Shown: piece after piece, positions 32,126-47,809 of the stretch
Layout: the number at the start of each line of letters is the position of its first letter
Position numbering within the stretch: position 1 is the first letter of the stretch
Assembly (NCBI RefSeq): GCF_003967195.1
Contig: NZ_AP018725.1
Span: forward strand, 1,488,001 to 1,552,000
Reading direction: 5' to 3'
DNA: 64,000 nucleotides
Source of the DNA: Sulfuriflexus mobilis
GTDB lineage: Bacteria; Pseudomonadota; Gammaproteobacteria; AKS1
Notes under the pieces: model-generated
What the model was told of the DNA's origin: nothing
Databases searched by the model: none
The model's input: the letters and a program-made list of their open reading frames with translations, nothing else
Translations under genes and position numbers: made by a program

Positions 32126-32816
32126 GCCCTGCCTGAATTTTTGTTCAAAATCATTGTGACTTTTACAATGCATCAATTCTGTGACGTAGTACACTGGAAA
32201 AAAACCATAATATAAAAGTGAAAATATATGGGGGTAAACAGCACTCTGTGCAGTTTCATTTGCCGTAAATATGCGTAGACGAATGATATGCAATCATTAA
32301 TATGGACCGGGCATATTTGAGGCGTAAATCGCCAGTATTCCCTCCTTCCGTTAATCAATTCTTTAATGGAAGGACCTTAGCTTGCATCATCGAGTAATTC
32401 ATTGCGCATGACTGTAACACTGGTCGGCGCGCCAAGCCTTTACTGTTAATGTTACGTATTTCCTTGTCAGTGCCCCTACATCTGGTCATCTAATTTAGGC
32501 ATTTCTGTGAACATAAATATTATTTAGATAGATCTGAGTATTCCAGATATTATTTTAGTGATTTTTGTTGACTGCGCGGGCCTAACGTGATGGGTCGATG
32601 ATTTGTTAATAAGGCCTATTCATTCAGAATAAACAGGGGCACTTGCCCTGCTAACGTTTGCCTTTGTTAATGTTGGTATGGCGTGTTTGTATTTATGAAC
32701 ATGGTGCACCCCTTAAGACCAGGTTGAATGCATACTTTGGGAGTTATATACACTCAAACGCCAGTTTATCCCAAGGGGTACATAATCATCGATAAGACCC
32801 TCTGTAAATAAGGATC
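32126..32816. promoter_or_regulatory. Long AT-rich intergenic region upstream of the ThDP operon
   Basis: The 691 bases between the CHAP and ThDP genes hold no convincing gene. CATTGT-N7-ACAATG (32152-32170) lies 27 bases before the ThDP start and looks like an operator. CTTCCGTTAA/TTAATGGAAG (32345-32372) is a near-perfect 10-base inverted repeat. ACCCCTT and AAGGGGT near 32711 and 32773 could close a larger structure. The rest is AT-rich with no feature I recognise. Confidence 0.4.
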
Positions 32817-33242
32817 TTATTTATATCTCTTTAAACCGATTAAATAATCATCTAACAACCAATAGCGTTTTTCAATTAACATAAGTGGAATTCGACGTTT
32901 GTGGCCCATGGGCTTAATGCCATTTATATAATTCTGTTCAGAGACAGTTACGGCATCACCATAGCTATTAATGTCAACAACGACGGCGACATGTCCCGTC
33001 CCCCGGTATTTCTCACTATAAATAACCAGGTCGCCAACCATCGGCGGGTGCGGCGAACCATTTAAGAGATTTTCAAGAGGGATCCTGGTGCTATCAGAAA
33101 TTCGGCTGTAAAAATTAATCTTATCCCAAATATCTGCTGCAATATTGACATCCTCAAAGGTAAGCCCCCTTTTTCTACACAACCAGTCCCGGGCATGCCC
33201 AACACATTCAGTTTTTGCTCTGCGGTCATTGATGTCTTTCAT
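32817..33242 (-). CDS. CHAP-domain amidase related to glutathionylspermidine amidase
   Basis: A 141-residue cysteine amidase-like domain. The catalytic cysteine is in ECVGHARDWL and the histidine in GTGHVAVVVDI. The NGSPHPPMVGDLVIY and SEQNYI stretches closely follow the amidase half of glutathionylspermidine synthetase/amidase, but no synthetase domain is present. The cysteine is only 13 residues from the ATG, and the upstream in-frame codons (YGTPGRI) resemble the missing family N-terminus, so the gene may be N-terminally decayed or start at a non-ATG codon. It lies 39 bases after a MAPEG gene. Confidence 0.75.
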   Translation of the reverse strand: MKDINDRRAKTECVGHARDWLCRKRGLTFEDVNIAADIWDKINFYSRISDSTRIPLENLLNGSPHPPMVGDLVIYSEKYRGTGHVAVVVDINSYGDAVTVSEQNYINGIKPMGHKRRIPLMLIEKRYWLLDDYLIGLKRYK

Positions 33243-33281
33243 GATTCTGCCGGGAGTGCCGTACTGAATCCCACAAATTGT

Positions 33282-33680
33282 TTATTTCAGGAGTTGATAT
33301 GCAAGGGTCAATGTTGCCCCTAAGCCAACGAACCATACAAAAGTCCTTAAAACCGGTACCTTGAAATAATAAAGTGGCGCATAGAGGAGCCGCGCCCAGA
33401 AATAGGTGGCAGCGGCCAGGATTGTTACATCATTACTCATTCCCGTAATATGGACGGCTATGGCCATAGGTGCGAACAAGGCAATACCTTCAAATGCATT
33501 CATGTGTGCACGATAGGCCCTGTGTGCCCATTCATCATCAAATGGATTATCACCAGGTAGTGGCCGGAGAAACGCTTGCCACAGGCCGCCAAGCTTATTC
33601 ACTCTGTAGACGGCATAAGGTATGACCATCGCCGCCGTCAAAACGACATTCCAGGTTAGCCAATAAATTTCGTCGGACAT
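33282..33680 (-). CDS. MAPEG-family membrane protein
   Basis: A 132-residue four-helix membrane protein. The AHRAYRAHMNAFEGIALFAP segment, with its conserved arginine, asparagine and glutamate, and the YFWARLLYAPLYYF segment are MAPEG hallmarks (membrane proteins of eicosanoid and glutathione metabolism). Bacterial members are mostly uncharacterised. It is transcribed away from the LysR gene at 33837 and is followed by the CHAP amidase gene, also glutathione-related by homology. Confidence 0.87.
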   Translation of the reverse strand: MSDEIYWLTWNVVLTAAMVIPYAVYRVNKLGGLWQAFLRPLPGDNPFDDEWAHRAYRAHMNAFEGIALFAPMAIAVHITGMSNDVTILAAATYFWARLLYAPLYYFKVPVLRTFVWFVGLGATLTLAYQLLK

Positions 33681-33786
33681 AAATAACTCCTAAATAAGTT
33701 TTATATATTTGCCTTTATACCTGCGTGGGCATGGATAGTGCGTATTACGACCCAGCCTTACCCTGGCCTGTAGAGGTAAACTAATA

Positions 33787-33843
33787 TATGCAGATAAGCT
33801 TGCATATAGAATTAACTGCATACACACTATGCATATATGCATA
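33787..33843. promoter_or_regulatory. Clustered TATGCA/TGCATA operator-like repeats
   Basis: TATGCA (33787-33792) and TGCATA (33801-33806) form an inverted pair. TGCATA occurs again at 33817-33822, and the palindrome TATGCATA occurs at 33828-33835 and 33836-33843, the last containing the LysR start codon. Such a cluster in the divergent LysR/MAPEG gap looks like a regulator binding region. Confidence 0.5.
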
Positions 33844-34727
33844 CCTTGGATTGGGACAATATTCGTTATTTTCTGGCAGTCGTTCATGCTGGCTCCGTCA
33901 GCCGTGCTTCTGAACAACTGGGTGTAAACCAGACAACGGTCTCTCGTCGCATCTCTGCGATGGAGTTACATTTAGGAAAAAAGCTTTTTGAACGATCCGG
34001 AAGTGGTTTTCTTATTACACCGGTTGCGGAACGACTTATTGCTTCAGCAGAAAGGATGGCAGAAGAAACCAGCACAATCGAACGTCACGTCATGGCAGAT
34101 AGCCACGAACTCAGTGGCGAATTACGCATAACGGTCGCTGATACGTGCACGCAACATTTGGTTGTTCCGGCAATTCAGACGTTTACCCGGCAATATCCTG
34201 AAGTCGACCTCCAGGTTATCGCAACACGAGATATACTTGACCTTACCGCACGCGAGGCCGACATTGCACTACGCTCGACCGATGAGCCGCCTCCCAATAT
34301 GGTAGGCAAGCGGGTTGCCCAATTAGCCTACGCGATATATGGCACAGAAGAGCTAATGGAGCGTGTACAGGCCAGTAGTAATATTGAGGATATCCCCTGT
34401 ATCACCTGGCTAGGCGATGGGCATAGTCGTCCGGCCTGGATAGAAAAAAGCTTTGCAAAGACCCGGCGCATTTACCGAAGTACTGAATTGGGTCTTATGC
34501 ATCAAATGGCGCGCCAGGGTATTGGTATGGCACAGATGCCATGCGCGCTTTGTGACCCGGACCCTCTCTTACATCGTATTCCATGTCGTTACGTCGAACC
34601 TGGTTGGGGGTTATGGGTACTGTCTCATGTAGACTTGCGAACAACCGCCCGTGTTCGAATATTCAGGGATTTCCTTGTTGAGGAACTTGAAAAGAAAAAA
34701 GACCTGATTGAAGGCAGGTCTGTTTAG
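33837..34727 (+). CDS. LysR-family transcriptional regulator
   Basis: A 296-residue LysR regulator. The winged-helix region includes FLAVVHAGSVSRASEQLGVN and LGKKLFERSGSGF, and the effector-binding domain has LRITVADTCTQH and DIALRSTDEPP, close to the group that regulates single-gene neighbours. No ribosome site precedes the ATG, which lies inside a TATGCATA palindrome, so the transcript may be leaderless or autoregulated. It is divergent from the MAPEG-CHAP pair. Confidence 0.88.
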   Translation: MHTLDWDNIRYFLAVVHAGSVSRASEQLGVNQTTVSRRISAMELHLGKKLFERSGSGFLITPVAERLIASAERMAEETSTIERHVMADSHELSGELRITVADTCTQHLVVPAIQTFTRQYPEVDLQVIATRDILDLTAREADIALRSTDEPPPNMVGKRVAQLAYAIYGTEELMERVQASSNIEDIPCITWLGDGHSRPAWIEKSFAKTRRIYRSTELGLMHQMARQGIGMAQMPCALCDPDPLLHRIPCRYVEPGWGLWVLSHVDLRTTARVRIFRDFLVEELEKKKDLIEGRSV

Positions 34728-34733
34728 GCCAGC

Positions 34734-35435
34734 TTAGAGATCCTTTAAGGCCTTTATAATCTCAGAGGTTGCCATGCGTTGTTTGTAATCGGTATCAGCG
34801 TGCATTGCACGTACAATGCCGCTTTTATCGATGACAAAACTACCTGGGACAGGCAATACCGTACGCCCGGGGCCATTATAGGCCGCGATGTCCAGGCCAT
34901 GTTTCAGATAGACCTCGTTGAGTTCCGGGTCCAGCTCGTAATAAAGCCTGAAGGCTTTCATTACCTTGCTGTCGAGGTCACTTAATACCTCAAAAGAATA
35001 ATCATCTTTCCTGATCTGTTGGGCTGAGCGATCGGGTTTTTGTGGTGTAATGGTAATCAACTGTGCCGCGTAGCGGACAAACTCGGGTTGTGCCTTTTTC
35101 AGCTCATGCAGGTGCAGGTTACAAAACGGGCACCAGGCACCGCGATAAAATACCAGCACTACCGGGCCTTTCTTGAGCTCCTTATATAAGGATACCGGCA
35201 TACCAAAGGCATTCGGCAAGGTAAAGTCAGGGGCCTTCTCCCCTACCCTTAGACCCGGCGCCGGCATTTTTTCTGCCAGTGAGCTTGCAGAGCGTTGCAT
35301 GATCGCCCTGTCTTCAGCTGAAAATTTTGAGCTGCCCTTTTTTGTCTGCGTGGCGCCCGCCGTCTCACCAGCCTGTATAAACCCGGCTATCAGGTATAAA
35401 AATAACAGCAAGGTCGTTTTGATAAAGCTATTCAT
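34734..35435 (-). CDS. Exported peroxiredoxin-like (AhpC/TSA) protein
   Basis: A 233-residue protein with a signal peptide (MNSFIKTTLLLFLYLIAGFI, cleavage likely near QAGETA). The thioredoxin-fold domain has FYRGAWCPFCNLHLHEL with a CPFC motif, then SYEVLSD-type strands and GSFVIDKSGIVRAMHADTDY. It matches the PRX-like 2 group. The ATG at 35435 has a GGAGGAAT ribosome site. It converges on the LysR gene with a 6-base gap. Likely periplasmic peroxide or thiol chemistry. Confidence 0.85.
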   Translation of the reverse strand: MNSFIKTTLLLFLYLIAGFIQAGETAGATQTKKGSSKFSAEDRAIMQRSASSLAEKMPAPGLRVGEKAPDFTLPNAFGMPVSLYKELKKGPVVLVFYRGAWCPFCNLHLHELKKAQPEFVRYAAQLITITPQKPDRSAQQIRKDDYSFEVLSDLDSKVMKAFRLYYELDPELNEVYLKHGLDIAAYNGPGRTVLPVPGSFVIDKSGIVRAMHADTDYKQRMATSEIIKALKDL

Positions 35436-35640
35436 TTGAGATTCCTCCCTGATTCGCTCGAAGTATATTATCCATACCAAGGCATAATGCCAATAATCAT
35501 TAGTAAGTACTTATATACTCAGCATTAGCGTTTAATTATAGTTTTTATCGCATGAGAGCACGATAACTGGGGGTTAATATTTGCATTTTATTTCAGTACG
35601 TTACAGGAAATTCCTCCATTAACAACACAAAACAACAATA

Positions 35641-35760
35641 TCGCTAAAGTTTCACCGATTCGAACCGAAATAGTTTATACAGCCACTCGGATATATCCGG
35701 GCAGACTGCTAAACAGGTTACCGGCTGCATGGTCAGCCGGGCTTTTAAATCCGGTATCAA
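35641..35760 (+). other. Structured leader with terminator-like hairpin
   Basis: Upstream of the PhnD-like gene, GTTTA (35673-35677) can pair with TAAAC near 35709-35713, around a CGGATATATCCG palindrome (35688-35699). Then CCGGCTG-CATGGT-CAGCCGG (35721-35740) is followed by GCTTTTAAAT. This resembles an aptamer-plus-terminator leader. It does not match a riboswitch class I can name. The region from 35436 to 35640 is AT-rich with nothing else recognised. Confidence 0.4.
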
Positions 35761-35779
35761 CGAGCAAGATAGGATGAGA

Positions 35780-36649
35780 ATGATGAAAAAAATAATCACA
35801 CTTATGATAACAGCGTTCTGTTTACATATCAGCCTGCCAGCATTTGCAGAAATAAAGGTCGGCGTAATGGCACCTCGTGGTGCATTAAAGACCATGAAGC
35901 AATGGGGTGAGCTTGGCACTTATCTGCAATCATCCGTTGGTAGCGAAGTAAAAATCGTACCCTTAAAGGCTAATGAAACCGTGGATGCCGTATTAAATGG
36001 TGCAGTTGACTATATGCTGACGAACCCGGTATTGACGGTCATCATGGAAAAGAAACAGGCTGGTACACCGATTGCGACGCTGAATCGTAAATCAGGCAGT
36101 CAATTTGCCGGTGTGATTATTGCAAAAAAAGGTAGTGGCATCACTAAAGGAACCGACCTCAAAGGCAAGAAGGTAATGGCTTTCAAATTCAGACGCTCGG
36201 CTGCCGCCTACGTATTTCAGGTTAAGCACCTGATTGATCAGGGTATTGACCCGCATAAAGACTTTGCATCCTTTAAAGAAGCCAAAAAACAGGACGACAT
36301 AGTGCTTGCCGTGAAGGCCGGCCTGGTCGATGCCGGTTTTATTAAATCGGGTCTTCTTGAAACCATGGCAAAAGAAGGCAAAATCAATATGGATGATTTT
36401 GAGATTGTCGATAAGCAGACTGATAGCCTGAAACATGTACATAGCACCATTCTCTATCCGGAGTGGTACATGTCGGCCTCAGTTAAAGCAGATGCCGCCA
36501 CAACTGCAAAACTGAAAGTCGCCCTGCTTAAATTAAATGCCGGCGACAAAGCCAGTCAATCTGCAGGCATCGTCGGCTTTGCTGATGCATTAAGCCTGAA
36601 CAATCTCGATGCAACATTAAAATCCCTGAAACTGCCACCTTACGAATAA
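35780..36649 (+). CDS. PhnD-like phosphate/phosphonate-type periplasmic binding protein
   Basis: A 289-residue exported protein with a signal peptide ending near LPAFA. The domain has KVGVMAPRGALKTMKQWGELGTYL written in two lobes, VDYMLTNPVLTVIM and GTDLKGKKVMAF, typical of the PhnD/SsuA2-like family. The ATG at 35780 has AGGA five bases upstream. No transporter genes accompany it; the next gene is a chemoreceptor 64 bases on, so it may act as a chemotaxis ligand-binding protein. Confidence 0.82.
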   Translation: MMKKIITLMITAFCLHISLPAFAEIKVGVMAPRGALKTMKQWGELGTYLQSSVGSEVKIVPLKANETVDAVLNGAVDYMLTNPVLTVIMEKKQAGTPIATLNRKSGSQFAGVIIAKKGSGITKGTDLKGKKVMAFKFRRSAAAYVFQVKHLIDQGIDPHKDFASFKEAKKQDDIVLAVKAGLVDAGFIKSGLLETMAKEGKINMDDFEIVDKQTDSLKHVHSTILYPEWYMSASVKADAATTAKLKVALLKLNAGDKASQSAGIVGFADALSLNNLDATLKSLKLPPYE

Positions 36650-36713
36650 CAGTGGCGGGTCTTATTTCAGGGTTTATTATTTGACTGCGAAATGAAAAAT
36701 GGAGAGGTATGGC

Positions 36714-38381
36714 ATGTCAGACACAACTACAACAACAAATGGGTTAAACCCGTTAAAGTGGCTTGCTCACCTGGATGTTACTAGCAAATTTATTGTTGCT
36801 ATGCTGGTCGGGATGAGTTTGCTGGCGGTCCTGAGTGAGGTCATATTGGTTAAGCAACAAGAAAAGTCATTTAACCAATTATTAACCTCTTCAGATAATA
36901 TCGTTGCAAAAATGTTTGAGGCCCAGAGTGAAAAATCAAAAGACGGGCTAAAAACAAAGGCTGAGAATCTTTCTGTGTTGCTCGCTGCGATAGCGCCAGC
37001 AGCTATCGCAGAGTTCGAACTCAGTGCACTATCTGACTATGCCAATGTGGTGCATAAGGATAAAGACATTTCATATGTCGCGATACTAGGCAATGACGGC
37101 TCCCCGTTGGCAACAACGGGCAGTAAAAGTGGATTAGGCAATAATCAATTTGTTAAATCCAAGGTAATGTCAGAAGACCTGGAACTCGGCAGCGTTGTTA
37201 TTGGTTACAACTTCGACAAGTTAAATACCGATTTATCTGAGGTTAGACAAAAAAGCGAGAGTGATCGGGCCGCCATGCAGGCGGCAAAGGATGATTCTCT
37301 GAATACTGCAACTTTCATATTAATTATTGCACTTGGTGTAATGATTATCGCGACCATTGGTATGGTTATCATGCTATTCAAATGGATCGTTGCGCAGCGT
37401 TTGTGTCTGCTGGAGAAGAATCTTCGCGCCATCTCGGAAGGTGAAGGTGACTTAAGGCGTCGCCTTGAAGTGAAGGGAAATGACGGCATTGATCGTTTGG
37501 GTAAATACTTTAATCTTTTTGTTGAGAAGATTCATACAGCTATTACGCGCGTGAATGATGCATCGATTCAACTCTCGGCCGCATCTCAACAGATGGCCTC
37601 TATCACGGATGAGTCAGCGCGGGCGATTGCCGAACAGCAATCTGAAACAACTCAGGTTGCTACAGCAATTAATGAAATGGCAGTAACGGTTGTTGAGGTG
37701 GCAAAGAATGCCTCCGAAGCCGCTACCGCTGCTCATGCTGCTGATACAGAAGCCTCCAGTGGCAAAAACGTGGTTAACAGCTCTGTTGCATCAATTCAGC
37801 AACTGGCTGATGATATAGAAAATGTGGCCCAAGTCATTTTACAACTCAAAAATGATAGCATCAGCATCGGTTCTGTACTTGACGTCATTCAGGGCATTTC
37901 TGAACAAACAAATTTACTCGCGCTGAATGCGGCTATTGAGGCAGCTCGCGCCGGTGAACAGGGGCGCGGTTTTGCTGTGGTCTCGGATGAAGTCCGCACG
38001 CTGGCAAAGCGTACCCAGGAATCGACTGCCGAGATTCAGGCCATGATTGAACAGGTGCAGAATGGGGCTGAAAAGGCGGTAACGGCTATGGAGGCGAGTC
38101 GTCAACAGGCACAGGCCAGTGTTGAAAAGGCCATTGAGTCAGGTAATTCATTCGAGACGATTACGGCGGCGATTGCAACCATCAATGATATGAACTCCCA
38201 TATTGCCAGTGCGGCGGAAGAACAAAGTGCAGTAGCGGAAGAAATTAACAAAAATATTAGCAAAATCAGTCAAATCGCTGAAAGTACAGCTGAAGGTGCC
38301 GGGAAAACAGATATTTCCAGTACTGAATTATCCAGCCTGTCTTCTGAACTTTCGACATTGATGACGCAGTTCAAAATATAG
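36714..38381 (+). CDS. Methyl-accepting chemotaxis protein
   Basis: A 555-residue chemoreceptor. A first membrane helix (about residues 19-42) and a second (about 190-225) enclose a small periplasmic domain, followed by HAMP and the signalling domain. The hairpin tip is very conserved: [20 protein letters not shown] and [19 protein letters not shown]. No C-terminal CheR-binding pentapeptide is seen. A GGAGAGG site precedes the ATG at 36714. It follows the PhnD-like gene and is ended by a strong terminator. Confidence 0.93.
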
Positions 38382-38387
38382 AAATTC

Positions 38388-38450
38388 GCGGATTCAATGT
38401 GCCGGCGCAAATCAATTTATAGTCCTGGCATATTGAATTCGCGTTATTTC
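38388..38450 (+). terminator. Long terminator hairpin after the chemoreceptor gene
   Basis: CGCGGATTCAATGTGCC (38388-38404) pairs with GGCATATTGAATTCGCG (38428-38444) over 17 positions, the two non-Watson-Crick positions being G-U pairs in RNA, followed by TTATTT. It closes the PhnD-chemoreceptor unit. Confidence 0.7.
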
Positions 38451-38484
38451 ATACACGGATTATCAACAGGTATTATGAAAGAAA

Positions 38485-38655
38485 CTAAAGAACTTGACTT
38501 AATAATAACGTAACCGATACACCAATATTCAAGGCCCAGGAAGTTGCCAGGCAACCCACGAGAAAGGCGAACATTAATAGTGTAAGCACAAGAGCATCAT
38601 AGGCATACATGAATTTTGACAGTCGTTTACCCGTCAGACCTTGCAATAACATCAT
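38485..38655 (-). CDS. Small single-pass or two-pass membrane protein (56 residues)
   Basis: This open frame encodes 56 residues starting MMLLQGLTGKRLSKF, with hydrophobic stretches ALVLTLLMFAFLVGCLATSW and NIGVSVTLLL. A GGGGG site lies 6 bases before the ATG at 38655. The gene stands alone between the chemoreceptor terminator and the DUF6316-type gene. Its basic N-terminus and one or two helices fit a small inner-membrane protein. I know of no family; the ribosome site and composition are the only evidence. Confidence 0.45.
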   Translation of the reverse strand: MMLLQGLTGKRLSKFMYAYDALVLTLLMFAFLVGCLATSWALNIGVSVTLLLSQVL

Positions 38656-38758
38656 TTCTACCCCCGATTTTTATTTGATAACACATATTTTTCTATACTT
38701 ACTGCATACCTATAAGTAACAGCAATTGCAGTATTTTAGAACTTAAAAATAAATTTCC

Positions 38759-39016
38759 TCATGCTTCCTTCTTGAGGCGATCATATATGGCTGCAGTATG
38801 ATGGATCGATTTTTTGTTAGTGGACTGCTGCTGTCGAATATAGGATTCGATGGCAAGTACAGCAACTGCCCTGCTTATGAAGGGGCCGTGATCAATCCCT
38901 TCACGCGTATTGAAGTACCAGCTGTTATTTATCGTGAATAAGCGCTGTGATCGAAATGCTGTTGTCTGTCTCTCACCATCGCGCAGTACTGTGTCCCATT
39001 TCATCGCAGTGTTCAT
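38759..39016 (-). CDS. DUF6316-like small protein
   Basis: An 85-residue protein with the core LRDGERQTTAFRSQRLF, then NNSWYFNTREGIDHGPF and a C-terminal helix. This resembles the DUF6316 family of gammaproteobacteria, function unknown. The ATG at 39016 has GAGGG seven bases upstream and is preferred over the ATG-like start at 39052. It is 40 bases after the first CxxC mini-protein gene on the same strand, so it is probably its operon partner. Confidence 0.6.
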   Translation of the reverse strand: MNTAMKWDTVLRDGERQTTAFRSQRLFTINNSWYFNTREGIDHGPFISRAVAVLAIESYIRQQQSTNKKSIHHTAAIYDRLKKEA

Positions 39017-39056
39017 ATTCTTTCCCTCTTGGTTACGTTTTGTATAGCCCATATGC

Positions 39057-39326
39057 TTACACTCTCATCAATACCTGTGCTTGATCGTCTTTTGTCTTCG
39101 GCTCGGTTTTCTCCAGCAATCTCTCAAGACCCTTCTGATGACAATCCGGGCACACATTATGATCTTCATGGGTTACGACCCAACCAAGCTTGCTGGCTTC
39201 ATGAATAGGCCCTTCATACCACGCGCGTCCGTCACTGATGCGGCGGCCAAAATGGTCGGCATTATGTATGCTGCGTATGGCCTGGGGGTTGCAGACATCA
39301 CAGAAGATAAATGTACGAATACTCAT
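39057..39326 (-). CDS. CxxC...CxxC mini-protein, paralog 1
   Basis: An 89-residue protein with MSIRTFIFCDVCNPQ, GRRISDGRAWYEG, EASKLGWVV and NVCPDCHQKGLERLLEK. The two CxxC pairs make a putative zinc ribbon. It shares the pattern [RT]F-F-C-x2-CNPx ... GRR-DGRxW[YF]EG ... EAS-x2-GWV ... G-x-N-LCPxCH with three neighbours at 39537, 39918 and 40354. I do not recognise a named family. A CRP-like palindrome lies 96 bases upstream. The DUF6316-like gene follows in the same direction. Confidence 0.75.
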   Translation of the reverse strand: MSIRTFIFCDVCNPQAIRSIHNADHFGRRISDGRAWYEGPIHEASKLGWVVTHEDHNVCPDCHQKGLERLLEKTEPKTKDDQAQVLMRV

Positions 39327-39394
39327 GACATCACCCGCCTGTATGTAATTTATACTGGAACACTTCAATTTTGTGTTCGCCTCAAGTTGAATAC

Positions 39395-39437
39395 AGTCTA
39401 GGCTCCGTTACAAAAATATGATGTGAGTTTTGCCACG
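39395..39437 (-). promoter_or_regulatory. CRP-like site and promoter of mini-protein paralog 1
   Basis: TGTGAGTTTTGCCACG (39422-39437) is a CRP-type palindrome with one good half (TGTGA) and one weaker half. On the minus strand, the -10-like hexamer TAGACT is at 39395-39400. Its position relative to the site centre is the same as at two sibling promoters, matching a class II activator site centred near -41.5. Confidence 0.6.
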
Positions 39438-39536
39438 TTGGCGGCCAATAATTGGCGCATGAAATCAGAACAGATAGTCTGCAGAGTGGTATCGCAGGGG
39501 TAAATACCAGAAACCCATTACAAGTTGTTGTTAGTA

Positions 39537-39722
39537 TTATTGTTTTTTAGCACATTTGAGACACAGGTTACGCCCGTCGTCGGTACTGACCCAGCCCAGT
39601 TTTGCTGCCTGATGGGCATGTCCCTCAAACCAGGCCGGTTGTCTGGCGGTGTTTTGTTCGTCTGCCCTACGATGGGCCCGTGGATTACATTTACCGCAAA
39701 AAACGAATGTTCGGGTGGTCAT
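39537..39722 (-). CDS. CxxC...CxxC mini-protein, paralog 2 (short form)
   Basis: A 61-residue paralog starting MTTRTFVFCGKCNPRAHRR and containing WFEGHAHQAAKLGWV and NLCLKCAKKQ. Both CxxC pairs are kept, but the GRR-DG segment and the GLERLL tail of its siblings are missing. The ribosome site is weak. A perfect CRP-like palindrome lies 78 bases upstream of the ATG. Confidence 0.7.
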   Translation of the reverse strand: MTTRTFVFCGKCNPRAHRRADEQNTARQPAWFEGHAHQAAKLGWVSTDDGRNLCLKCAKKQ

Positions 39723-39772
39723 AATGAAAATCTGCTTCTAGTGAACGTAAAGTAATAGACTTGTATAAGAAC

Positions 39773-39815
39773 AAGATATCTCGCCGGCTATCAGCAATAT
39801 GTGAGTTTTCTCACA
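39773..39815 (-). promoter_or_regulatory. Perfect CRP-like palindrome and promoter of mini-protein paralog 2
   Basis: TGTGAGTTTTCTCACA (39800-39815) matches TGTGA-N6-TCACA with perfect arms. On the minus strand the -10-like hexamer TATCTT is at 39773-39778, about 30 bases from the site centre, as in the two sibling promoters. This supports direct activation by a CRP-type protein. Confidence 0.68.
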
Positions 39816-39848
39816 CGGGGGAGGAAATTGGCTAGCGTGAAGATTTCA

Positions 39849-39898
39849 GGGAGAAACCCGGAGGCTTTCTGAAGCCGGCTGTAAAGCGCCGGTTTTAT
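39849..39898 (+). ncRNA. Candidate small structured RNA with terminator (plus strand)
   Basis: Three hairpins follow in series on the plus strand: GGG-AGAAA-CCC (39849-39859), GGCTT-TCTG-AAGCC (39863-39876) and CCGGC-TGTAAAGC-GCCGG (39875-39892), the last followed by TTTTATTT. The second and third share two bases, so they could be alternatives. No plus-strand gene precedes the terminator, so a short RNA is possible. A clear plus-strand promoter was not found, so confidence is low. Confidence 0.35.
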
Positions 39899-39917
39899 TT
39901 ATGAATAAGAGGAGATT

Positions 39918-40181
39918 TCACACATTCAGAACGACTTCTGTAGCCGCGGGTTCCACTTTTTTTTCGTCCAGTAACCTTTCCAGGCCCTTGGTATGACACC
40001 TTGGACACAGATTATGCCCCTCGCTGGTGCAGACCCAGCCGTTTTCGCTGGCCTCCTGTGGATCGCCCTCGAACCATGCGCGGCCATCTGCATAACGTCG
40101 CCCATACTGAGAACCGTTATCAATGGCACGGTTCCCCTGAGGGTTGCAGACATCACAGAAAATGAAAGTGCGTATGGCCAT
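39918..40181 (-). CDS. CxxC...CxxC mini-protein, paralog 3
   Basis: An 87-residue paralog with MAIRTFIFCDVCNPQGNR, YGRRYADGRAWFEG, EASENGWVCTSEGHNLCP and CHTKGLERLLDEKK. It has both CxxC pairs and the full-length pattern. The ATG at 40181 is preferred over a TTG two codons upstream. No good CRP-like site was found in the 172 bases before it, only a degenerate GTGATTGTCTCA near 40289, so it may be read from the promoter of paralog 4. Confidence 0.75.
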   Translation of the reverse strand: MAIRTFIFCDVCNPQGNRAIDNGSQYGRRYADGRAWFEGDPQEASENGWVCTSEGHNLCPRCHTKGLERLLDEKKVEPAATEVVLNV

Positions 40182-40302
40182 GTTCAATTCTATGCAACAT
40201 GCACGCCATTTATTAGCATTTGCTTATATTTCTGATAAGTCTTTATTTATATTGTTTATTTATGGATACGGTACGATTAGCCGGGATGGTGATTGTCTCA
40301 GC

Positions 40303-40332
40303 ATAGTGCATGGCTCTGGTGTCATGCACTAT
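40303..40332. repeat. 10-base inverted repeat between paralogs 3 and 4
   Basis: ATAGTGCATG (40303-40312) and CATGCACTAT (40323-40332) are exact complements around a 10-base spacer. It lies 22 bases downstream of the paralog 4 stop on the minus strand. No T-tract follows on either strand. It could be an mRNA 3'-end hairpin or an operator for paralog 3. Confidence 0.5.
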
Positions 40333-40353
40333 CCGAGGTATTGAGTGTAGACA

Positions 40354-40623
40354 TCAGGCACACCTGAGTAGCGGTATCGCGTGGTGCGGGGTTTGAACAT
40401 GTGTTTCAGCCAATATTTCCCCCAACCCCCTGGCATGGCACTTCGGACACAGGTGATGCCCTTCAGCGTTACTGACCCAGCCGCATTCACTTGCCTCACA
40501 GATATCGCCCTCGTACCAGGTACGACCATCATCGTTGCGGCGGCCATATTGGAAACCGTCGTTGATGGTACGGATCCCCTGGGGGTTACAGGCATCACAG
40601 AAAATAAAGCTACGTATGGCCAT
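40354..40623 (-). CDS. CxxC...CxxC mini-protein, paralog 4
   Basis: An 89-residue paralog with MAIRSFIFCDACNPQGIR, YGRRNDDGRTWYEG, EASECGWV and HHLCPKCHARGLGEILAE. It has the best ribosome site of the four (GGGAGGTGAGAGACC before the ATG). It is first in the series in transcription order and has its own CRP-like site 98 bases upstream. The 326-base gap to the divergent CRP-type regulator gene is shared. Confidence 0.77.
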   Translation of the reverse strand: MAIRSFIFCDACNPQGIRTINDGFQYGRRNDDGRTWYEGDICEASECGWVSNAEGHHLCPKCHARGLGEILAETHVQTPHHAIPLLRCA

Positions 40624-40693
40624 GGTCTCTCACCTCCCGTTTCTGAACGGATGTGTTGAATAAAAACGCATCAAATCTTCAAATATTGAGACC

Positions 40694-40736
40694 AGAGTAG
40701 CCTGATACAGCGCGGAATGATGTGAGAATTCGCACG
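40694..40736 (-). promoter_or_regulatory. CRP-like site and promoter of mini-protein paralog 4
   Basis: TGTGAGAATTCGCACG (40721-40736) has a perfect TGTGA half and a weaker second half. On the minus strand TACTCT (40694-40699) sits about 30 bases from the site centre, the same geometry as the other two promoters. The regulator gene starts 214 bases to the right, so the region may serve both directions. Confidence 0.62.
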
Positions 40737-40949
40737 ACCAGAGTCATAGCAGGCGGATAGTTCTATCCTGAACGCATAGAAGGTTATGGCAGCGGCCAGC
40801 GGGTACGTATATTATGGAGTGGTCAGAGAAACACTGGCACAAATATAGAACATGGTCGATACGGATTATCCCTCTGAACCTGAACGGATGCCGACTGGAT
40901 AAACAGTACTTATACTTATAGAAGATACTGCTTTGAGGATGACATCAAG

Positions 40950-41660
40950 ATGACGGATATTGTAAAGGTATCTCCAGCCATGATCGGTACGATCGAGGTA
41001 TTTCGGCAACTGTCGCAGCAACAACGCGAATCACTGAGTCCCCTCTTGAAAGCCCGAAAATATCTAGCCAATGAACACATTATTTCACGAGGCGATGACT
41101 CGAAAGATGTCTTTTTTATCGTCAGCGGTATGGTCAGAGTGACCAGCTATACGGCTGGAGGCAAAGAAGTGTCTTTCCGGGATATGTCAGCGGGCCAGAT
41201 GTTTGGTGAACTTTCAGCCATTGACGGCCAATCACGGTCTGCGGATGTGCTGGCCCTGACAGAGTCCGTACTGGTAGTGACGCCACCTGATACTTTCATG
41301 AGAATTTTACGTGACTACCCTGATGTGACCGAATTAATACTGCGACAGTTAACCAGGCTGGTCCGCAGTTTGGGCGATCGTGTTATTGAATTCAGTGCCC
41401 TGTCTGTAAAGAGCAGAATCCATGCCGAAATATTAAGACTCGCAAAAAAGAATATTCTGGATGATAACAGCGCAGAAATAGTACCTGCCCCGACGCATCT
41501 CGATATTGCGAATCGTATCAGTACACATAGAGAGGCGGTATCAAGGGAGTTCAGCGAACTATCCAGGAGTGGAATTCTACAGCGCGCAGACGGAAAGTTA
41601 ATCATCTATGATATGGCACGATTGGAAGGTCTTCTCGATGAAGTAAAAAGTGGGCCTTAA
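40950..41660 (+). CDS. CRP/FNR-family transcriptional regulator
   Basis: A 236-residue regulator. The N-terminal cyclic-nucleotide-binding fold keeps GEL (residues 86-88) and RSA (96-98), the phosphate-binding cassette positions of CRP. There are no cysteines, so it is not an FNR-type iron-sulfur sensor. The C-terminal winged helix has HLDIANRISTHREAVSREF; Arg194, Glu195 and Arg199 align with CRP Arg180, Glu181 and Arg185, which read TGTGA. It is divergent from four mini-protein genes, three of which carry TGTGA-type sites. Confidence 0.9.
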   Translation: MTDIVKVSPAMIGTIEVFRQLSQQQRESLSPLLKARKYLANEHIISRGDDSKDVFFIVSGMVRVTSYTAGGKEVSFRDMSAGQMFGELSAIDGQSRSADVLALTESVLVVTPPDTFMRILRDYPDVTELILRQLTRLVRSLGDRVIEFSALSVKSRIHAEILRLAKKNILDDNSAEIVPAPTHLDIANRISTHREAVSREFSELSRSGILQRADGKLIIYDMARLEGLLDEVKSGP

Positions 41661-41756
41661 ATGTCCGTGTTAACACAGGCAGAGCGATATCCAGAAAGGT
41701 AAAGGTGATTTAAGGTGTTATCTTGATTTTATAACACACAGATTATCAATAAATGT

Positions 41757-43103
41757 TCAGGGCTGGCTCGCAGGCAACTTCACCCAGAACAGGCTACCCT
41801 CCCCGTGCACGCTTTTAACACCTATTTCTCCGTTCATACGATGCAGGAGCTGCTGGCTAAGGCTCAGGCCAATACCGGTGCCATCAACATTATTTACGGT
41901 ATCGAGCCGGTGAAATGGTTTGAACAATTCCTCAATGTCAGTGGCTTTTATGCCTATACCCGTGTCACGGACCTCAATACAGACATTGCTACCATCGACA
42001 CTTGAGTCCAGCGTTACGCTGCCGTTAACTCGATTGAACTTGATTGCATTACCTAAAAGATTTATCAAGACCTCCTTTAAACGTAGCGGATCAGCGAACA
42101 CATGGTGCGATGCTTTGATATTGTTAATGATGGTAATGCCCTTTTTCTGGGCCATTTTTTCGACAAACGACAGACTTTCTTTTGTGCACTCTAAGACACT
42201 GACATCTTCAAGCGTCACGGTAAATTCGCCTTGTTCCAGATAAGAAAGATCCAGGACTTTATTAATCAAACCTAGCAAATGATCGCCGGCAACCATGATT
42301 TCTTTTACATGTTTGTCCTGTTCCCTGCTTAATGGGTTTTTCGTATCTATTTGTAATATTTGTGAGAAACCCAAGATTGCATTCAGTGGCGTGCGCAATT
42401 CGTGACTCATGCTTGAAAGAAAACGTGATTTTGCCTCGTTAGCCCGTTCCGCCAATATCATGGCCTCACGAATGGCAATGGCATCATGATGACTCTTGTA
42501 ACTCAACTCAATATTTTGGCGTGTGTTTCTGTACATCCTCAATGAGCTGGCCAAGATTGTCAGGTAAAATAAGATAGTCAATATAAATAACAGAAAGGCA
42601 TACTGGTGTTGTTCAGAATAAAATTGTATGGCCACTGGTGCAAGTATAATACTGATATAGCCAATACCCGTTATGCGCAGATAAGAAAGGGTAGTGATAC
42701 TTCCCGCAGCCATGCCGGCTGTAATAATTGCTAATAATGCCTGGCCGATAATATTGTTATGGGGAAACAGGTAGATCATCGCCCCGCCCCAGATACTCGC
42801 ATTGATTAACGTGGTAACGACAAATGCCTGTAACCAGAATAATGCACCAGAGTTAGTACTTCGTGCATAAGCCATGGCAAAGCCAGAGCGCACGATGGCG
42901 ATAACAATCATCATTGTCATCCAGACGATTACATGGCTGTGCTGGATAAATGGCCATTCGATATAAGAGAGTAAGCCAGCATTGAACAGGGTCATGACAA
43001 CACTAAACGGTATCGCGGTATATAAAAGCCGAGTCTGTTCACGTTGAATAGACACGCGCATATCATCGTCATCGTTCTGTATTTTTGTGGTGGCAGTGTT
43101 CAC
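41757..43103 (-). CDS. Multi-pass membrane sensor histidine kinase
   Basis: A 448-residue kinase with about six membrane helices in the first 190 residues, so the sensor is likely within the membrane. HisKA follows (KSRFLSSMSHELRTPLNAIL, phospho-acceptor histidine), then HATPase with NLLGNAIKFNRVNG, VRDTGIGI and DGTGIGLSLS. No response regulator is adjacent; a phosphorelay partner is likely elsewhere. The start used is a GTG at 43103; an ATG at 43061 is an alternative. It converges on the CRP-type regulator gene. Confidence 0.85.
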   Translation of the reverse strand: MNTATTKIQNDDDDMRVSIQREQTRLLYTAIPFSVVMTLFNAGLLSYIEWPFIQHSHVIVWMTMMIVIAIVRSGFAMAYARSTNSGALFWLQAFVVTTLINASIWGGAMIYLFPHNNIIGQALLAIITAGMAAGSITTLSYLRITGIGYISIILAPVAIQFYSEQHQYAFLLFILTILFYLTILASSLRMYRNTRQNIELSYKSHHDAIAIREAMILAERANEAKSRFLSSMSHELRTPLNAILGFSQILQIDTKNPLSREQDKHVKEIMVAGDHLLGLINKVLDLSYLEQGEFTVTLEDVSVLECTKESLSFVEKMAQKKGITIINNIKASHHVFADPLRLKEVLINLLGNAIKFNRVNGSVTLDSSVDGSNVCIEVRDTGIGIKATDIEELFKPFHRLDTVNNVDGTGIGLSLSQQLLHRMNGEIGVKSVHGEGSLFWVKLPASQP

Positions 43104-43729
43104 AACAATTCTTACCAGTGTTATCCTGTAGAGCGTCGGTTTAATATAAGGCAGAGTCCCGTCCGCGCTTTATTGCTACAGTAAATGCACAGGTAGAAAT
43201 GGCCTGGCCGTATACCGCTATCCGTCACCACAAGGCCTCCGCCTTGTTGTATAAGTATTGAATACTGCTCCAGACTACCGACAGGATGCGTTCAATAAAT
43301 TGTCCTGTTGGGTGTTGAGAGTAAGTGGCATGTGCTTAACGACACTCCCACACTTTCTAATTCTCAATGATAAAACCGGGCAAGAATAGCGCAGAGTGCA
43401 CATAATGGCTATTCAGTCCCCTTGTCAGGTCAATCCGCCATAATTTGAACCGCTTGCCGCTTGCCCGATCCGCCCTGAATTCTACCACGATAATAACATA
43501 TTAAAAACAAGGGTATTTCACGACGCTGTGGTGGCCGGCCTGCCTCACCTCACAGCAGGTATCTAAGAAAGGCACTACAATCTTCTCATATCCACATATA
43601 ATGTGAATCCCGGAAATGCCTGCTAGACGCTTTATAGATATACCCGATTGTAATTAAGATTTATGCCCTGGCCATATTTCGCAAGGCCGTATTGAGGCGG
43701 AAATTATAAAAATAAATGGGGAAGGTTCT
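43104..43729. other. 626-base intergenic region without a recognised gene
   Basis: This divergent gap between the kinase and the 1359-residue protein gene contains no open frame with a ribosome site that I trust. It includes a small perfect hairpin CAAGGC-CTCC-GCCTTG (43231-43246). The promoter of the large gene is probably in the AT-rich last 100 bases, but no good -35/-10 pair was picked out. A GGGGAAGG ribosome site precedes the ATG at 43730. Confidence 0.4.
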
Positions 43730-46700
43730 ATGCGTAATACCCGCTTCGTTGTGCTGTTTTTAGCTTGTTTGCTCCCGCTTACGGGTTTGTTTGCCAAGCC
43801 CATTTCTCAGCAGCAAATTCCAGATGAGCTGAAACCCTGGAAGGACTGGGTGCTGTATGGTGAAGAATCTCTGGCCTGCCCGTTTATTTATCATGATATC
43901 AGGCAAAGGCGTTGCGCCTGGCCGACAGGGCTAACGCTGGACCTGCGGCCTGCGGCGGGTACTTTTTCACAGCAATGGTATGCCTATACCGACAGCCTGC
44001 TGACACTACCTGGTGACAGCAAACACTGGCCACAAGAGGTCAAACTCAATGGTGAGGATGCGATTGTTGTCATGCAGGACGGGAGACCGTCGGTGTGGGT
44101 CGGCGCGGGGGCTCATCGCCTTTCGGGGCGTTTTCAATGGTCGCGGGTACCGGAGTCATTATTGATACCGGTCGATACGGGGCTCATCAACCTGACGGTG
44201 AATAACCGCAGCATCCCTGCAGCGGATGTCGATGCCACGGGCAAGCTATGGTTGCGCGAGCGCGATACCGGCAAGCAGGACAAGGACGGCGATCAGCTGG
44301 ACATCCAGGTATTTCGTCGCGTCAACGACCTCATCCCCCAACAGGTTACGACACGCCTGCTTCTCAATGTTGCCGGGGCACAGCGCGAGGTCGTGGTCGG
44401 CAAGGCCTTGCTCGAGGGGTTTATTCCATTACAACTGATAAGCCGCCTCCCTGCCCGGCTGGAGCCGGACGGTCGACTGCGCCTGCAGGTGCGCCCGGGT
44501 AAATGGACTATTGACCTCGTCGCCAGGGCCACGGCAGCGATCACACAACTAAACCCCGACAAGAACCCTGCGCCGTGGCCGGATGAGGAAATATGGTCAT
44601 TCGAGGCGCAAACCTCTCTGCGCCTGATTGAAATAGAGGGGGCGCCGACAGTCGACCCTCGACAGACCAACCTGCCCGCTGACTGGCGGAATTTTCCTGC
44701 CTATCGTTTGACCCCGACAACAACGATGGTCTTTAAGCAGATTCGTCGTGGTGACCCGGAGCCGGCACCGGATCAATTGTCCCTGAACCGGGAGTTATGG
44801 CTTGATCACGACGGCGCGGGTTACACGGTCAAAGACACGATACAGGGCAGCATGACACAAAAGTGGCGTCTCGAGGCGGGCCCCGGCCTGCAACTCGGCC
44901 GCGCGCTTGTCGACGGTCAACCACAATTTATTACCACCCTGCCGGGCAAGGCCTTGCGCGGTGTCGAGGTACGTCGAGGTGCCATCCAGCTGAATGCCGA
45001 CAGTCGTATGCATGGCAACATTGACACCTTGCCGGCCGTTGGCTGGCAACATGATTTCCAGTCGGTCCGCGCCAACCTGCACTTGCCGCCGGGCTGGGAT
45101 GTCCTGTCCGTGCGCGGCACGGACAATGTGCCGAATTCCTGGTTACAGCGCTGGACACTGCTGGACCTGTTCCTGGTGCTTATTATCGGACTGGCTGCCG
45201 CACGTATGTGGAACTGGGCATACGGTGGACTCGCGCTGGTTACGGTCACCCTGCTCTGGCATGAGCCACTGGCACCGACTTATATCTTTTTAAACCTGCT
45301 CGCCGCGATTGCCCTGTTGCGCGTTCTGCCCAAGGGGGTGTTTGCACGCATTATGCGCAGTTATCGTAGTATCAGTCTTATCGCACTGATCCTTATTGCC
45401 GTCCCCTTTATGGTGCATGAAATCCGAACGGGTATTTATCCGCAACTGGAGTTTCCCGGCAAGCTGCGGCAACCCTATTCGGCTACCGTCACGGCACCTG
45501 TGCCCGAGGAGGTGGCATCATCGCAGATTATGGAATTGTCGGAACCGCGAGGTCGCAAACAGGCCTTGTTCGATAGTTACAGTACCGTGCGTGAGGGTCT
45601 GCTATCCAGTAATATCCCGTTATCCAAAATAGACCCGCAGGCCAACATCCAGACCGGGCCGGGTCTGCCACAATGGCAATGGCGTTCCGTACCACTGAGC
45701 TGGAACGGGCCCGTTGCGCAACAGCAGCAAGTCGACGTGGTGTTTATTAACCCTGTTGCCAACCTTGTCCTGAGTTTCCTGCGTGTCATCCTGCTGGTGG
45801 TATTTTCCGCCTACCTGTTTGGAATCGATTTTCGCAAAGGCAGTGGTTTCAGTTTTAACACCCGCGCACTCATGCCCGTTATGTTGCTGGCGGTGTTACT
45901 ACCCTTTTCAATCTCTGATGCACAGGCCGGGCTGCCTGATGAAAACATATTAAAGGAGCTCAAGACTCGACTGACTGCGCCACCAGACTGTCTGCCCGGC
46001 TGTGCGCAATCACCGGCCCTGTCATTGACGATAGCCGATAATCTGATGACACTGCAATTTGATATTCATGCGCAGGAAAATACGGCCGTGCCCTTACCTG
46101 CGCATGTTCAGCAGTGGTTGCCAAAAACCATAAGTCTTGATGGTAAATCGCCGCAAGGCCTGTATCGTAACCCTGCGGGTGAATTATGGGTCAATGTCGA
46201 TAAGGGTCTGCACCGTATTGTATTAAGCGGTGACATGCCGCAACGTAACAGTTTTACCCTGCCGATGCCCCTGACACCACACCGTGTTGACGTCTCCGCA
46301 CAGGGTTGGGTCGTGGATGGCGTGCACGAAGAGGGCGTGCCGGATCGACAGTTACAATTGACTCGACTGCAATCACAACAGACAGCGGTGCAAAAAGATA
46401 GCCTGGAAGCCAACGTCTTGCCGGCCTTTGCGATCATCTCCCGGACACTGCGACTGGGGCTGGACTGGCAAGTGGAAACCCTTGTGCAGCGCCTATCACC
46501 ACTGGGCAATGCCATTGTTATGGAGTACCCATTGCTTAAAGGTGAATCTGTGATCAGCGAGGGCGTGCGGGTGGAAAACGGCCGTGTGCTGGTGAGTATG
46601 TCGCCAGGGCAGGCGCAGACCCACTGGCTATCCTCCCTCGAGAAGCGTGACCTGCTGAAACTCAATGCCATGCAAACGACGCAGTGGACCGAGATCTGGC

Positions 46701-47809
46701 GCGCTGACATCAGCCCGATCTGGCACGTCGAACTTTCCGGGATCCCTGTCGTGCATCACCAGGGACAGGGCGGGCAGTGGCTGCCGGAATGGCACCCCTA
46801 CCCCGGTGAGACGGCCAGCCTGACGATCAGCCGCCCCCTGGGCGTTACAGGCCAGACCTTGACCATTGATGACAGCCAGTTGACCATCAAACCCGGTAAA
46901 CGGGCAACGGCAAGCACCTTGGAACTAAATCTGCGCAGCAGTCAGGGCGGCCAGCACACGCTCACCTTGCCCGAGTCGGTGGCGTTACAGAGTGTCAGTA
47001 TCAATGGTGTTTCACAACCGGTACGTCAGGAGGACCGAAAAGTTACCCTGCCGCTCGTGCCGGGCATGCAGCAGTTCAACCTGAAGTGGCGTGACGAGCG
47101 TCCTGTCTCCCTGCGTTATCGCAGTGCGGCGATCGATCTTGGCGCCGCCAGTGTCAATCACCGTATTAACCTGCAACTCGGGAATGATCGCTGGGTCTTA
47201 TTGACCGGTGGGCCACGACTTGGCCCGGCCGTCCTCTACTGGGGAATATTGTTTGTCATCGTCCTGATTGCCATCATCCTCGGTCGCATCACGCTGACAC
47301 CACTGAGAACCTGGCAATGGCTGTTGCTGGCCGTTGGCCTGAGCCAGGTGTCGGTGATTGTCGGCCTGATTGTCGTCGGCTGGTTACTGGCACTGGGTGC
47401 ACGTTGCCGACTGCAAGACAATATCGCGCGTAGTCATTTCAATGCCATGCAGGTCCTGCTCGCTATCCTCTCAGTCATTGCCCTGAGCCTGTTGGTCGTC
47501 GCCGTTCAACAGGGTCTCCTCGGTTACCCTGACATGATGGTGGCCGGCAATGGTTCCTCGGCCTATAACCTGAACTGGTATCAGGATCGTGCCATGACGG
47601 TTCCGCAATCGGCCTGGGTGCTATCAGTGCCGATACTGGTCTATCGTTTATTGATGCTGGCCTGGGCCTTATGGCTTGCCTTTGCCCTGCTACGCTGGTT
47701 GAAATGGGGCTGGGCTTGTTATGCCACGAAGGGGCTATGGCGCAAGACACCGAAGATCATCAATAAGGAAAGCTCCGCAGTAAATAATGCGGCAACGGCA
47801 AACAAATGA
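43730..47809 (+). CDS. Very large secreted/membrane protein of unknown function (1359 residues)
   Basis: The protein begins with a signal peptide (cleavage near GLFAKP), then a soluble beta-rich part to about residue 470, a cluster of about four membrane helices (474-565), a periplasmic piece, two more helices (about 675-700 and 713-735), a second large soluble part (736-1165) and about five helices at the C-terminus (1167-1328). The two soluble parts start alike: DELKPWKDW...WPQEVKLNGEDA...SVWVGAGAHRLSG and ENILKELKT...LPKTISLDGKS...ELWVNVDKGLHRIVLSG, suggesting an internal duplication. No catalytic motif is recognised. It is a single-gene unit ended by a bidirectional terminator. Confidence 0.8.
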   Translation: MRNTRFVVLFLACLLPLTGLFAKPISQQQIPDELKPWKDWVLYGEESLACPFIYHDIRQRRCAWPTGLTLDLRPAAGTFSQQWYAYTDSLLTLPGDSKHWPQEVKLNGEDAIVVMQDGRPSVWVGAGAHRLSGRFQWSRVPESLLIPVDTGLINLTVNNRSIPAADVDATGKLWLRERDTGKQDKDGDQLDIQVFRRVNDLIPQQVTTRLLLNVAGAQREVVVGKALLEGFIPLQLISRLPARLEPDGRLRLQVRPGKWTIDLVARATAAITQLNPDKNPAPWPDEEIWSFEAQTSLRLIEIEGAPTVDPRQTNLPADWRNFPAYRLTPTTTMVFKQIRRGDPEPAPDQLSLNRELWLDHDGAGYTVKDTIQGSMTQKWRLEAGPGLQLGRALVDGQPQFITTLPGKALRGVEVRRGAIQLNADSRMHGNIDTLPAVGWQHDFQSVRANLHLPPGWDVLSVRGTDNVPNSWLQRWTLLDLFLVLIIGLAAARMWNWAYGGLALVTVTLLWHEPLAPTYIFLNLLAAIALLRVLPKGVFARIMRSYRSISLIALILIAVPFMVHEIRTGIYPQLEFPGKLRQPYSATVTAPVPEEVASSQIMELSEPRGRKQALFDSYSTVREGLLSSNIPLSKIDPQANIQTGPGLPQWQWRSVPLSWNGPVAQQQQVDVVFINPVANLVLSFLRVILLVVFSAYLFGIDFRKGSGFSFNTRALMPVMLLAVLLPFSISDAQAGLPDENILKELKTRLTAPPDCLPGCAQSPALSLTIADNLMTLQFDIHAQENTAVPLPAHVQQWLPKTISLDGKSPQGLYRNPAGELWVNVDKGLHRIVLSGDMPQRNSFTLPMPLTPHRVDVSAQGWVVDGVHEEGVPDRQLQLTRLQSQQTAVQKDSLEANVLPAFAIISRTLRLGLDWQVETLVQRLSPLGNAIVMEYPLLKGESVISEGVRVENGRVLVSMSPGQAQTHWLSSLEKRDLLKLNAMQTTQWTEIWRADISPIWHVELSGIPVVHHQGQGGQWLPEWHPYPGETASLTISRPLGVTGQTLTIDDSQLTIKPGKRATASTLELNLRSSQGGQHTLTLPESVALQSVSINGVSQPVRQEDRKVTLPLVPGMQQFNLKWRDERPVSLRYRSAAIDLGAASVNHRINLQLGNDRWVLLTGGPRLGPAVLYWGILFVIVLIAIILGRITLTPLRTWQWLLLAVGLSQVSVIVGLIVVGWLLALGARCRLQDNIARSHFNAMQVLLAILSVIALSLLVVAVQQGLLGYPDMMVAGNGSSAYNLNWYQDRAMTVPQSAWVLSVPILVYRLLMLAWALWLAFALLRWLKWGWACYATKGLWRKTPKIINKESSAVNNAATANK

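Follow-up and report, generated by a model that had tools for sequence, protein, structure and literature searches.

Two of the closest described families, the FmdB zinc ribbon (TIGR02605) and Zn_ribbon_8 (PF09723), comprise small proteins with a CPxC motif near the C-terminal end. In the stretch of 64,000 nucleotides (nt) of the Sulfuriflexus mobilis genome analysed here (contig NZ_AP018725.1, positions 1,488,001 to 1,552,000; hereafter the window), four open reading frames (ORFs) lying in tandem on the minus strand between positions 39057 and 40623 (copies 1 to 4; Table 1) encode small proteins that resemble them in this respect, each carrying two CxxC pairs. Unlike members of those families, however, copy 1 matched the two profiles over about 18-26 residues round its second CxxC, far below both cut-offs (TIGR02605, E = 0.0088, 16.1 bits against a cut-off of 31.3; PF09723, E = 0.047, 14.2 against 34.4), and TIGR02605 was matched by one of 35 members at E ≤ 0.5. 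As judged from the comparisons described below, the four copies belong to a small-protein family that is real and that is undescribed in the reference libraries searched. We tentatively favour the view that its members are modules held together by zinc which offer an arginine loop to an anionic partner, and that the family has been expanded in S. mobilis and placed under CRP-type control.

A family of small four-cysteine proteins

An earlier note on this DNA had described four tandem proteins with a common aromatic/glycine pattern, the second of them being a shortened form without the GRR segment and the GLERLL tail. The ORF list and the alignment of the four copies (A1) agree with this description: 18 columns were invariant, including both cysteine pairs, W38, E40, G41, G50 and W51, and copy 2 contains the cysteines and the W, EG, A and GW residues while lacking the GRRxxDGR loop and the C-terminal tail. 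The start codons of copies 1 and 3 were placed at the conserved ATG. A fifth member of 110 amino acids (aa) is encoded at position 1908513 of the single 3.11 Mb contig, 380 kb from the tandem copies, and the GRRxxDGR loop is found in this copy as well as in copies 1, 3 and 4. With the database size set nominally to 100,000 letters and the composition correction switched off, pairwise BLASTP E-values between the copies lay between 2e-36 and 5e-12, indicating that the copies are homologous and that their likeness is not due to chance.

When 84,980 species genomes were scanned with alignment A2, 43 distinct loci were obtained, a number that should be considered a lower bound because the scan depends on short exact peptide patterns; an earlier scan of the same kind, with one protein as the query, had found no locus. 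All 43 relatives come from Pseudomonadota, gamma or beta where the label is specific, and as labelled in the records they belong to Methylococcales, Hydrogenophilales, Thiobacillus, other Betaproteobacteria, Gallionellaceae, Piscirickettsiaceae, one Chromatiaceae and one Pseudomonadales, with 7 of the 43 loci labelled merely proteobacterium or Pseudomonadota. Counted from the conserved start, these 43 members are about 70-104 aa long; the open frame extends further upstream in some loci (e.g. L042), an extension that was taken as untranslated. Residues F8, C9, C12, N13, W42, G45, A50, W55, C65 and C68 were invariant in all 49 rows of alignment A4, and M1, R4, F6, D10, P14, R18, E21, G33, R34, R35, D38, G39, R40 and G54 were present in at least 90% of them. 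The four cysteines were likewise invariant in the 35 rows of alignment A3. The pattern FCxxCN ... W..G ... A ... W ... CxxC, by which we define the family, was found in 49 of 49 rows, including the five copies of S. mobilis. The GRR and DGR residues occur in at least 90% of the rows of both A3 and A4 and were regarded as near-universal rather than defining, the loop being variable in a few relatives too, such as L045, L046 and L051.

The four tandem proteins had initially been assigned to no named family, with the remark that a clear match to a described family would contradict that assignment; such a match was looked for in Pfam, NCBIfam, PHROGs and PADLOC, and none was found. Among 35 members, no family scored above its cut-off either in Pfam (best E = 0.0062, 25 of the 26 matched families being listed) or in NCBIfam (best E = 0.0025), and the ten proteins scanned against PHROGs gave no convincing match (best E = 0.011). 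The best PADLOC match (E = 0.0018) occurred in one of 49 members, and a role in anti-phage defence was discounted. A relationship to the ribosomal protein eL42 was also rejected: among distinct PDB sequences the profile had one match at E ≤ 10, to 4v8p_AC (E = 0.2), which we treated as chance. A phage or plasmid origin found no backing in tblastn searches with one query each (copy 3 against phages, the Methylomonas member L032 against plasmids), which returned nothing at E ≤ 0.1. One IMG/VR viral contig does hold a member (L068, 5001-5225), placed 0.7-1 kb beyond phage-tail-like genes and beside host-like genes (both by eye), so that this contig looks like the edge of a prophage. No description of the family was seen in the search listings of open-licence literature, the peptide FCDICN retrieving unrelated work only.

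Copies were also counted in related genomes, as the earlier note had proposed. All 43 relative genomes (whose completeness was not stated) carry a single copy, as against five in S. mobilis. In a sample of the class, for which up to 14 candidates were scored per genome, 5 of 370 genomes matched, namely S. mobilis with its five copies and four genomes with one each, and no member was found in the three other genomes of the genus, only one of which is more than 90% complete. A sample of the phylum gave matches in 12 of 397 genomes: S. mobilis itself, nine genomes in which a distant form was convincingly matched, and two (G504 and G704) in which the match is partial and doubtful; the two matches in one genome (G430) were pieces of one ORF. 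The distant form defines a sister group with the same core and with DRR repeats in the linker between the cysteine pairs, homologous to the family by profile-profile comparison (probability 99, E = 9.5e-18). It belongs to another class, of which 16 of 48 genomes carry one copy each. Two sister-group members scanned against Pfam matched nothing at E ≤ 0.01, and eight scanned against NCBIfam gave one match, at E = 0.059. The family is sparse, and among the genomes searched a copy number above one was seen in S. mobilis only.

Age of the tandem copies and their upstream boxes

The tandem arrangement had been put down to recent duplication and divergence. Duplication and divergence are upheld by our analysis and recency is not, since synonymous sites are saturated: with the NG86 method, synonymous divergence (dS) was 1.4-3.0 in 5 of the 10 pairs formed by the five copies and was not computable in the other 5, nonsynonymous divergence (dN) being 0.29-0.69, and a recent duplication was ruled out accordingly. 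Identity was 33-54% at third codon positions and 52-74% at the first and second, the third being the less conserved in each of the ten pairs, which argues that the frames are coding; the gap was small in one pair, copies 2 and 4 (66, 52 and 49% identity at positions 1, 2 and 3). In a tree of 52 rows and 92 columns the tandem copies formed one clade (support 99/96), with copy 2 on a very long branch and its placement within the four-copy clade unsure. Judged by these substitution patterns, the copies are old and have been retained.

A shared 20-nt repeat was found 5' of copies 1, 2 and 4, each time containing a palindrome of the CRP type (Table 1). Of the five sites that TGTGAGNNTTNNCAC has in the genome (3.11 Mb), three lie 5' of these copies, and its reversed control has none; the other two sites lie in a murE-like coding stretch (by eye) and in the interior of a 73-aa ORF. 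Although the distance from the start of the box to the start codon differs among copies 1, 2 and 4 (111, 93 and 113 nt), a TANNNT element stands exactly 21 nt behind all three boxes. When the 60 nt downstream were shuffled by mononucleotide (20,000 trials), the three shared an offset between 17 and 25 nt in 0.035% of cases, and one of 21 nt in 0.01%. Sites of the form TGTGA-N6-TCACA with at most one mismatch number 77 in the genome versus 36 for the reversed pattern, and CRP-type sites therefore seem to be generally used in it. The candidate activator is encoded divergently from copy 4 (Table 1), and both this regulator and that of locus L087, which we take to be CRP-like, carry R-E-x-x-x-R in the recognition helix; a helix of this kind recognises TGTGA in E. 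coli CRP. We infer from the predicted boxes that copies 1, 2 and 4 are activated in a CRP-type manner.

Predicted fold and readings of function

Structure prediction, another check suggested at the outset, was carried out with AlphaFold, and the two models obtained (mean predicted local distance difference test score, pLDDT, 77.7 and 80.6) agree in plan: a strand precedes the first cysteine pair, a strand and a short helix cover the WFxG...A region, two short strands follow, and the second pair sits at the start of a helix (residues 60-64 with C59/C62 in one model, 66-72 with C65/C68 in the other). These models suggest a treble-clef-like module. The label zinc-ribbon-like, given to the proteins in the earlier note, is thus apt as to the zinc-type family, its "ribbon" part being approximate, since the position of the second pair points to a treble clef. 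With four invariant cysteines and the predicted fold, zinc binding is very likely, and each protein probably holds one zinc by its four cysteines.

According to the mechanism that we tentatively prefer, one zinc per protein would be held by the N-terminal FCxxCN and by the CPxC close to the end, and the treble-clef-like module so formed would present the nearly invariant, arginine-rich loop GRRxxDGRxWFxG. As the most conserved non-metal feature, this loop should be the working surface, and its arginines suggest an anionic partner, which might be a nucleic acid, a nucleotide or an acidic protein face; the protein would then serve as a small regulatory adaptor. In S. mobilis the gene was duplicated long ago to give the four tandem copies, beside a more typical copy elsewhere in the genome. 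Because copies 1, 2 and 4 each have their own putative CRP-type promoter, a CRP-family regulator, perhaps the divergent neighbour, would raise them on its signal, and copy 2, having lost the loop, may pair with the full-length proteins or compete with them. Three copies share a promoter type that a fourth does not have, and one has no loop; from this we propose a graded or competing use of the contact. The anionic partner, the adaptor role and the role of copy 2 are put forward as proposals from sequence.

Several observations weigh against this mechanism, some of them concerning the module and others its control. Between the first cysteine pair and the WFxG...A region the models have a poorly predicted loop (residues 21-30, pLDDT 56-57), and structure searches of the PDB gave no significant match: the first model reached a best VIA Z of 3.4 and a best Foldseek E of 1.7, its rows of ZZ, RING and GATA type scoring Z 2.2-3.0, weak and not significant, and the second model gave one VIA row at Z 2.2 and no Foldseek match at E ≤ 10. 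Net charge ranges from -5 to +7 across 52 rows, which disfavours general nucleic-acid binding and leads us to favour a specific contact. Among the loci of the family and of the distant group, no gene recurs as a partner in every lineage. As for the promoters, the boxes of copies 1 and 4 carry two mismatches each, copy 3 has neither TGTGA nor TCACA in the 220 nt upstream, and the fifth copy lacks a box, its best site within 300 nt upstream having three mismatches. The 21-nt spacing had been spotted before the shuffle test was made, and a plain sigma-70 scan, which listed 8 promoters against 7.3 expected, did not have these among them. When two mismatches were permitted, TGTGAGNNNTCNCAC showed no enrichment in the window, with 9 sites against an expected 16.0, and clustering at the tandem genes is limited to near-exact matches to the box. 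Sites with two mismatches at best lie within 300 nt upstream in 6 of the 43 relatives, near the chance number (about 5 by arithmetic), so that the box was rejected as a family-wide feature and its control would be at most local to the S. mobilis genome. Moreover, the genome encodes five Crp-type regulators, one of which (L087) is by eye nearer to classical CRP, which makes several of them candidate binders.

The same loop could instead make the proteins sequence-specific nucleic-acid-binding factors, in which a GATA-like or treble-clef finger contacts DNA or RNA through its conserved arginines and the copies are paralogous regulators. The weak structural rows, which include GATA, AreA and one eukaryotic ribosome chain (presumably eS21), lean this way, as do three loci (L021, L045 and L052) where the member lies, almost without gaps, between nrdR-like and ribD-like genes (names by eye). 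We nevertheless consider this reading unlikely, given that none of the structural scores reaches significance, that the only PDB sequence matched was the eL42 chain mentioned above, and that many members are neutral or net acidic. An accessory role in two-component or pilus systems, tied to envelope sensing, appears rather unlikely, in spite of the neighbourhoods that speak for it. In Methylococcales the member is found near pilin-like genes (MSHA-type by eye), clusters of this sort occurring in 14-15 of the 43 loci; a DUF6701 protein adjoins the member in L029, and the next gene in L011 encodes a T2SSE ATPase. A search of open-licence literature for MshQ/DUF6701 returned, among the matches listed, unrelated ones. 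Two-component genes account for 12 of the 118 neighbours of members in 60 loci, always on the same strand, and for 37 of the 602 genes of these loci overall. In four loci from related genomes of the distant group (L118, L120, L121 and L142), the member is surrounded by a response regulator that carries a class III cyclase domain (PF00211), a protein of 153-160 aa and a hybrid kinase, these domains being assigned from a Pfam run on L118 alone; the 153-160-aa protein is small and coiled-coil-like, with a weak ZapB match. However, these contexts come from few lineages and others show neither type of gene. In a second set of 17 loci (16 of the distant class and L122 of the class of the window), 8 have an adjoining two-component gene, all on the same strand, which amounts to 8 of 33 neighbours and is the local level, as 28 of the 129 genes of that set are two-component genes; in the 43 loci of the first set the figures are 4 of 85 neighbours, in each case a histidine kinase directly upstream of the member and all from one lineage, versus 9 of 473 genes.

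Metal handling or redox activity, with the cysteines holding iron as in rubredoxin or buffering zinc, would account for the four invariant cysteines and agrees with the record labels of many hosts as methanotrophs, Thiobacillus-like bacteria or Gallionellaceae, organisms with a heavy metal and redox metabolism. This explanation is improbable in our judgement, as a mere buffer would not be expected to conserve its loop and W/G residues so strongly, no rubredoxin family appears among the matches listed at E ≤ 0.5 for 35 members (25 of the 26 families in Pfam, all 5 in NCBIfam), and the models place the second CxxC at a helix start, unlike in the rubredoxin knuckle. That the copies are drifting duplicates of little function, in an AT-rich and perhaps acquired segment, seems distinctly improbable. 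Positions 32001-43700 do have a GC content of 0.451 compared with 0.537 elsewhere in the window, conserved parts are missing from copy 2, and the other genomes of the genus yielded no member; but copies 3 and 4 do not share the low GC content (0.54-0.55), codon positions 1 and 2 exceed the third in identity in every pair, if barely for copies 2 and 4, and the repeat shared upstream of the genes is limited to the 20-nt box region. A further, very improbable reading would make the nearly invariant GRRxxDGR loop a second-messenger pocket on the zinc module, by which a protein present in one copy would link type IV pili or two-component systems to a cyclic nucleotide, the S. mobilis genes being a small CRP-controlled set with copy 2 as a decoy. 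The RxxD contained in GRRxxDGR resembles that of the inhibitory sites for cyclic di-GMP.

Surrounding features and comparison with known systems

Table 1 Features of the tandem locus (positions in the window)
Feature	Positions	Strand	Remarks
DUF6316 gene	38759..39016	-	PF19837, 2.2e-18, scanned as the longer frame 38759-39052
Copy 1	39057..39326	-	89 aa, full-length member; begins MSIRTFIFCDVCNP; start at ATG (ORF list: upstream TTG)
Putative -10 element of copy 1	39395..39400	-	TAGACT, 21 nt after the box
CRP-type palindrome of copy 1	39422..39437	-	two mismatches to TGTGA-N6-TCACA
Copy 2	39537..39722	-	61 aa, short form; four cysteines kept; net charge +6
Putative -10 element of copy 2	39773..39778	-	TATCTT, 21 nt after the box
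CRP-type palindrome of copy 2	39800..39815	-	perfect TGTGA-N6-TCACA
Copy 3	39918..40181	-	87 aa, full-length member; start at ATG (ORF list: upstream TTG)
Strong-hairpin stretch 3' of copy 4	40285..40353	-	-21.2 kcal/mol, z -3.65, 0 of 200 shuffles equally stable
Copy 4	40354..40623	-	89 aa, full-length member
Putative -10 element of copy 4	40694..40699	-	TACTCT, 21 nt after the box
CRP-type palindrome of copy 4	40721..40736	-	two mismatches to TGTGA-N6-TCACA
Crp/Fnr-family regulator, candidate activator of the boxes	40950..41660	+	PF00027 5.7e-21, PF13545 1e-11; divergent from copy 4

The DUF6316 gene begins 40 nt after copy 1, or 4 nt after it if the upstream ATG at 39052 is used, and the two are possibly co-transcribed. 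This gene is the sole copy in the genome; it had no BLASTP match among the ORFs of loci L011-L053, and none of the open-licence papers searched names the DUF6316 family. The hairpin following copy 4 is a possible transcript end; no U-run was found behind its stem within the stretch, and the terminator scan had no entry for it. No tRNA was found in the window, nor did Rfam at gathering thresholds give any match between 30000 and 48000. Further along, the plus strand encodes at 43730-47809 a protein of 1359 aa matching no Pfam family at E ≤ 0.001.

The present results provide a sharp motif, which others can look for, for a family missing from the libraries searched. Five divergent copies, three of them with a shared promoter element and one with a natural deletion of the loop, form a comparison set for the function of the arginine loop; otherwise, this is one more uncharacterised family of small zinc proteins. 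Besides the FmdB-type ribbons, weak matches link the family to the unnamed phage families phrog_17873, phrog_10682 and phrog_8303, mostly over the A..GW......CPxC half, but none of these rises above noise and the phage search with copy 3 was empty. Compared with GATA, ZZ and other treble-clef fingers, there is no sequence similarity above Pfam cut-offs and the best structural score is not significant; the models suggest a similar layout, with the first CxxC near the N-terminus and the second at the start of a helix, and the structural rows that include such fingers are weak. The putative promoter elements differ from class II CRP promoters in that two of the three boxes have two mismatches; like such promoters, they place a TGTGA-N6-TCACA-like palindrome 5' of a TANNNT element, and the 21-nt spacing would set the box near -41.5, the position that it occupies in class II CRP promoters.

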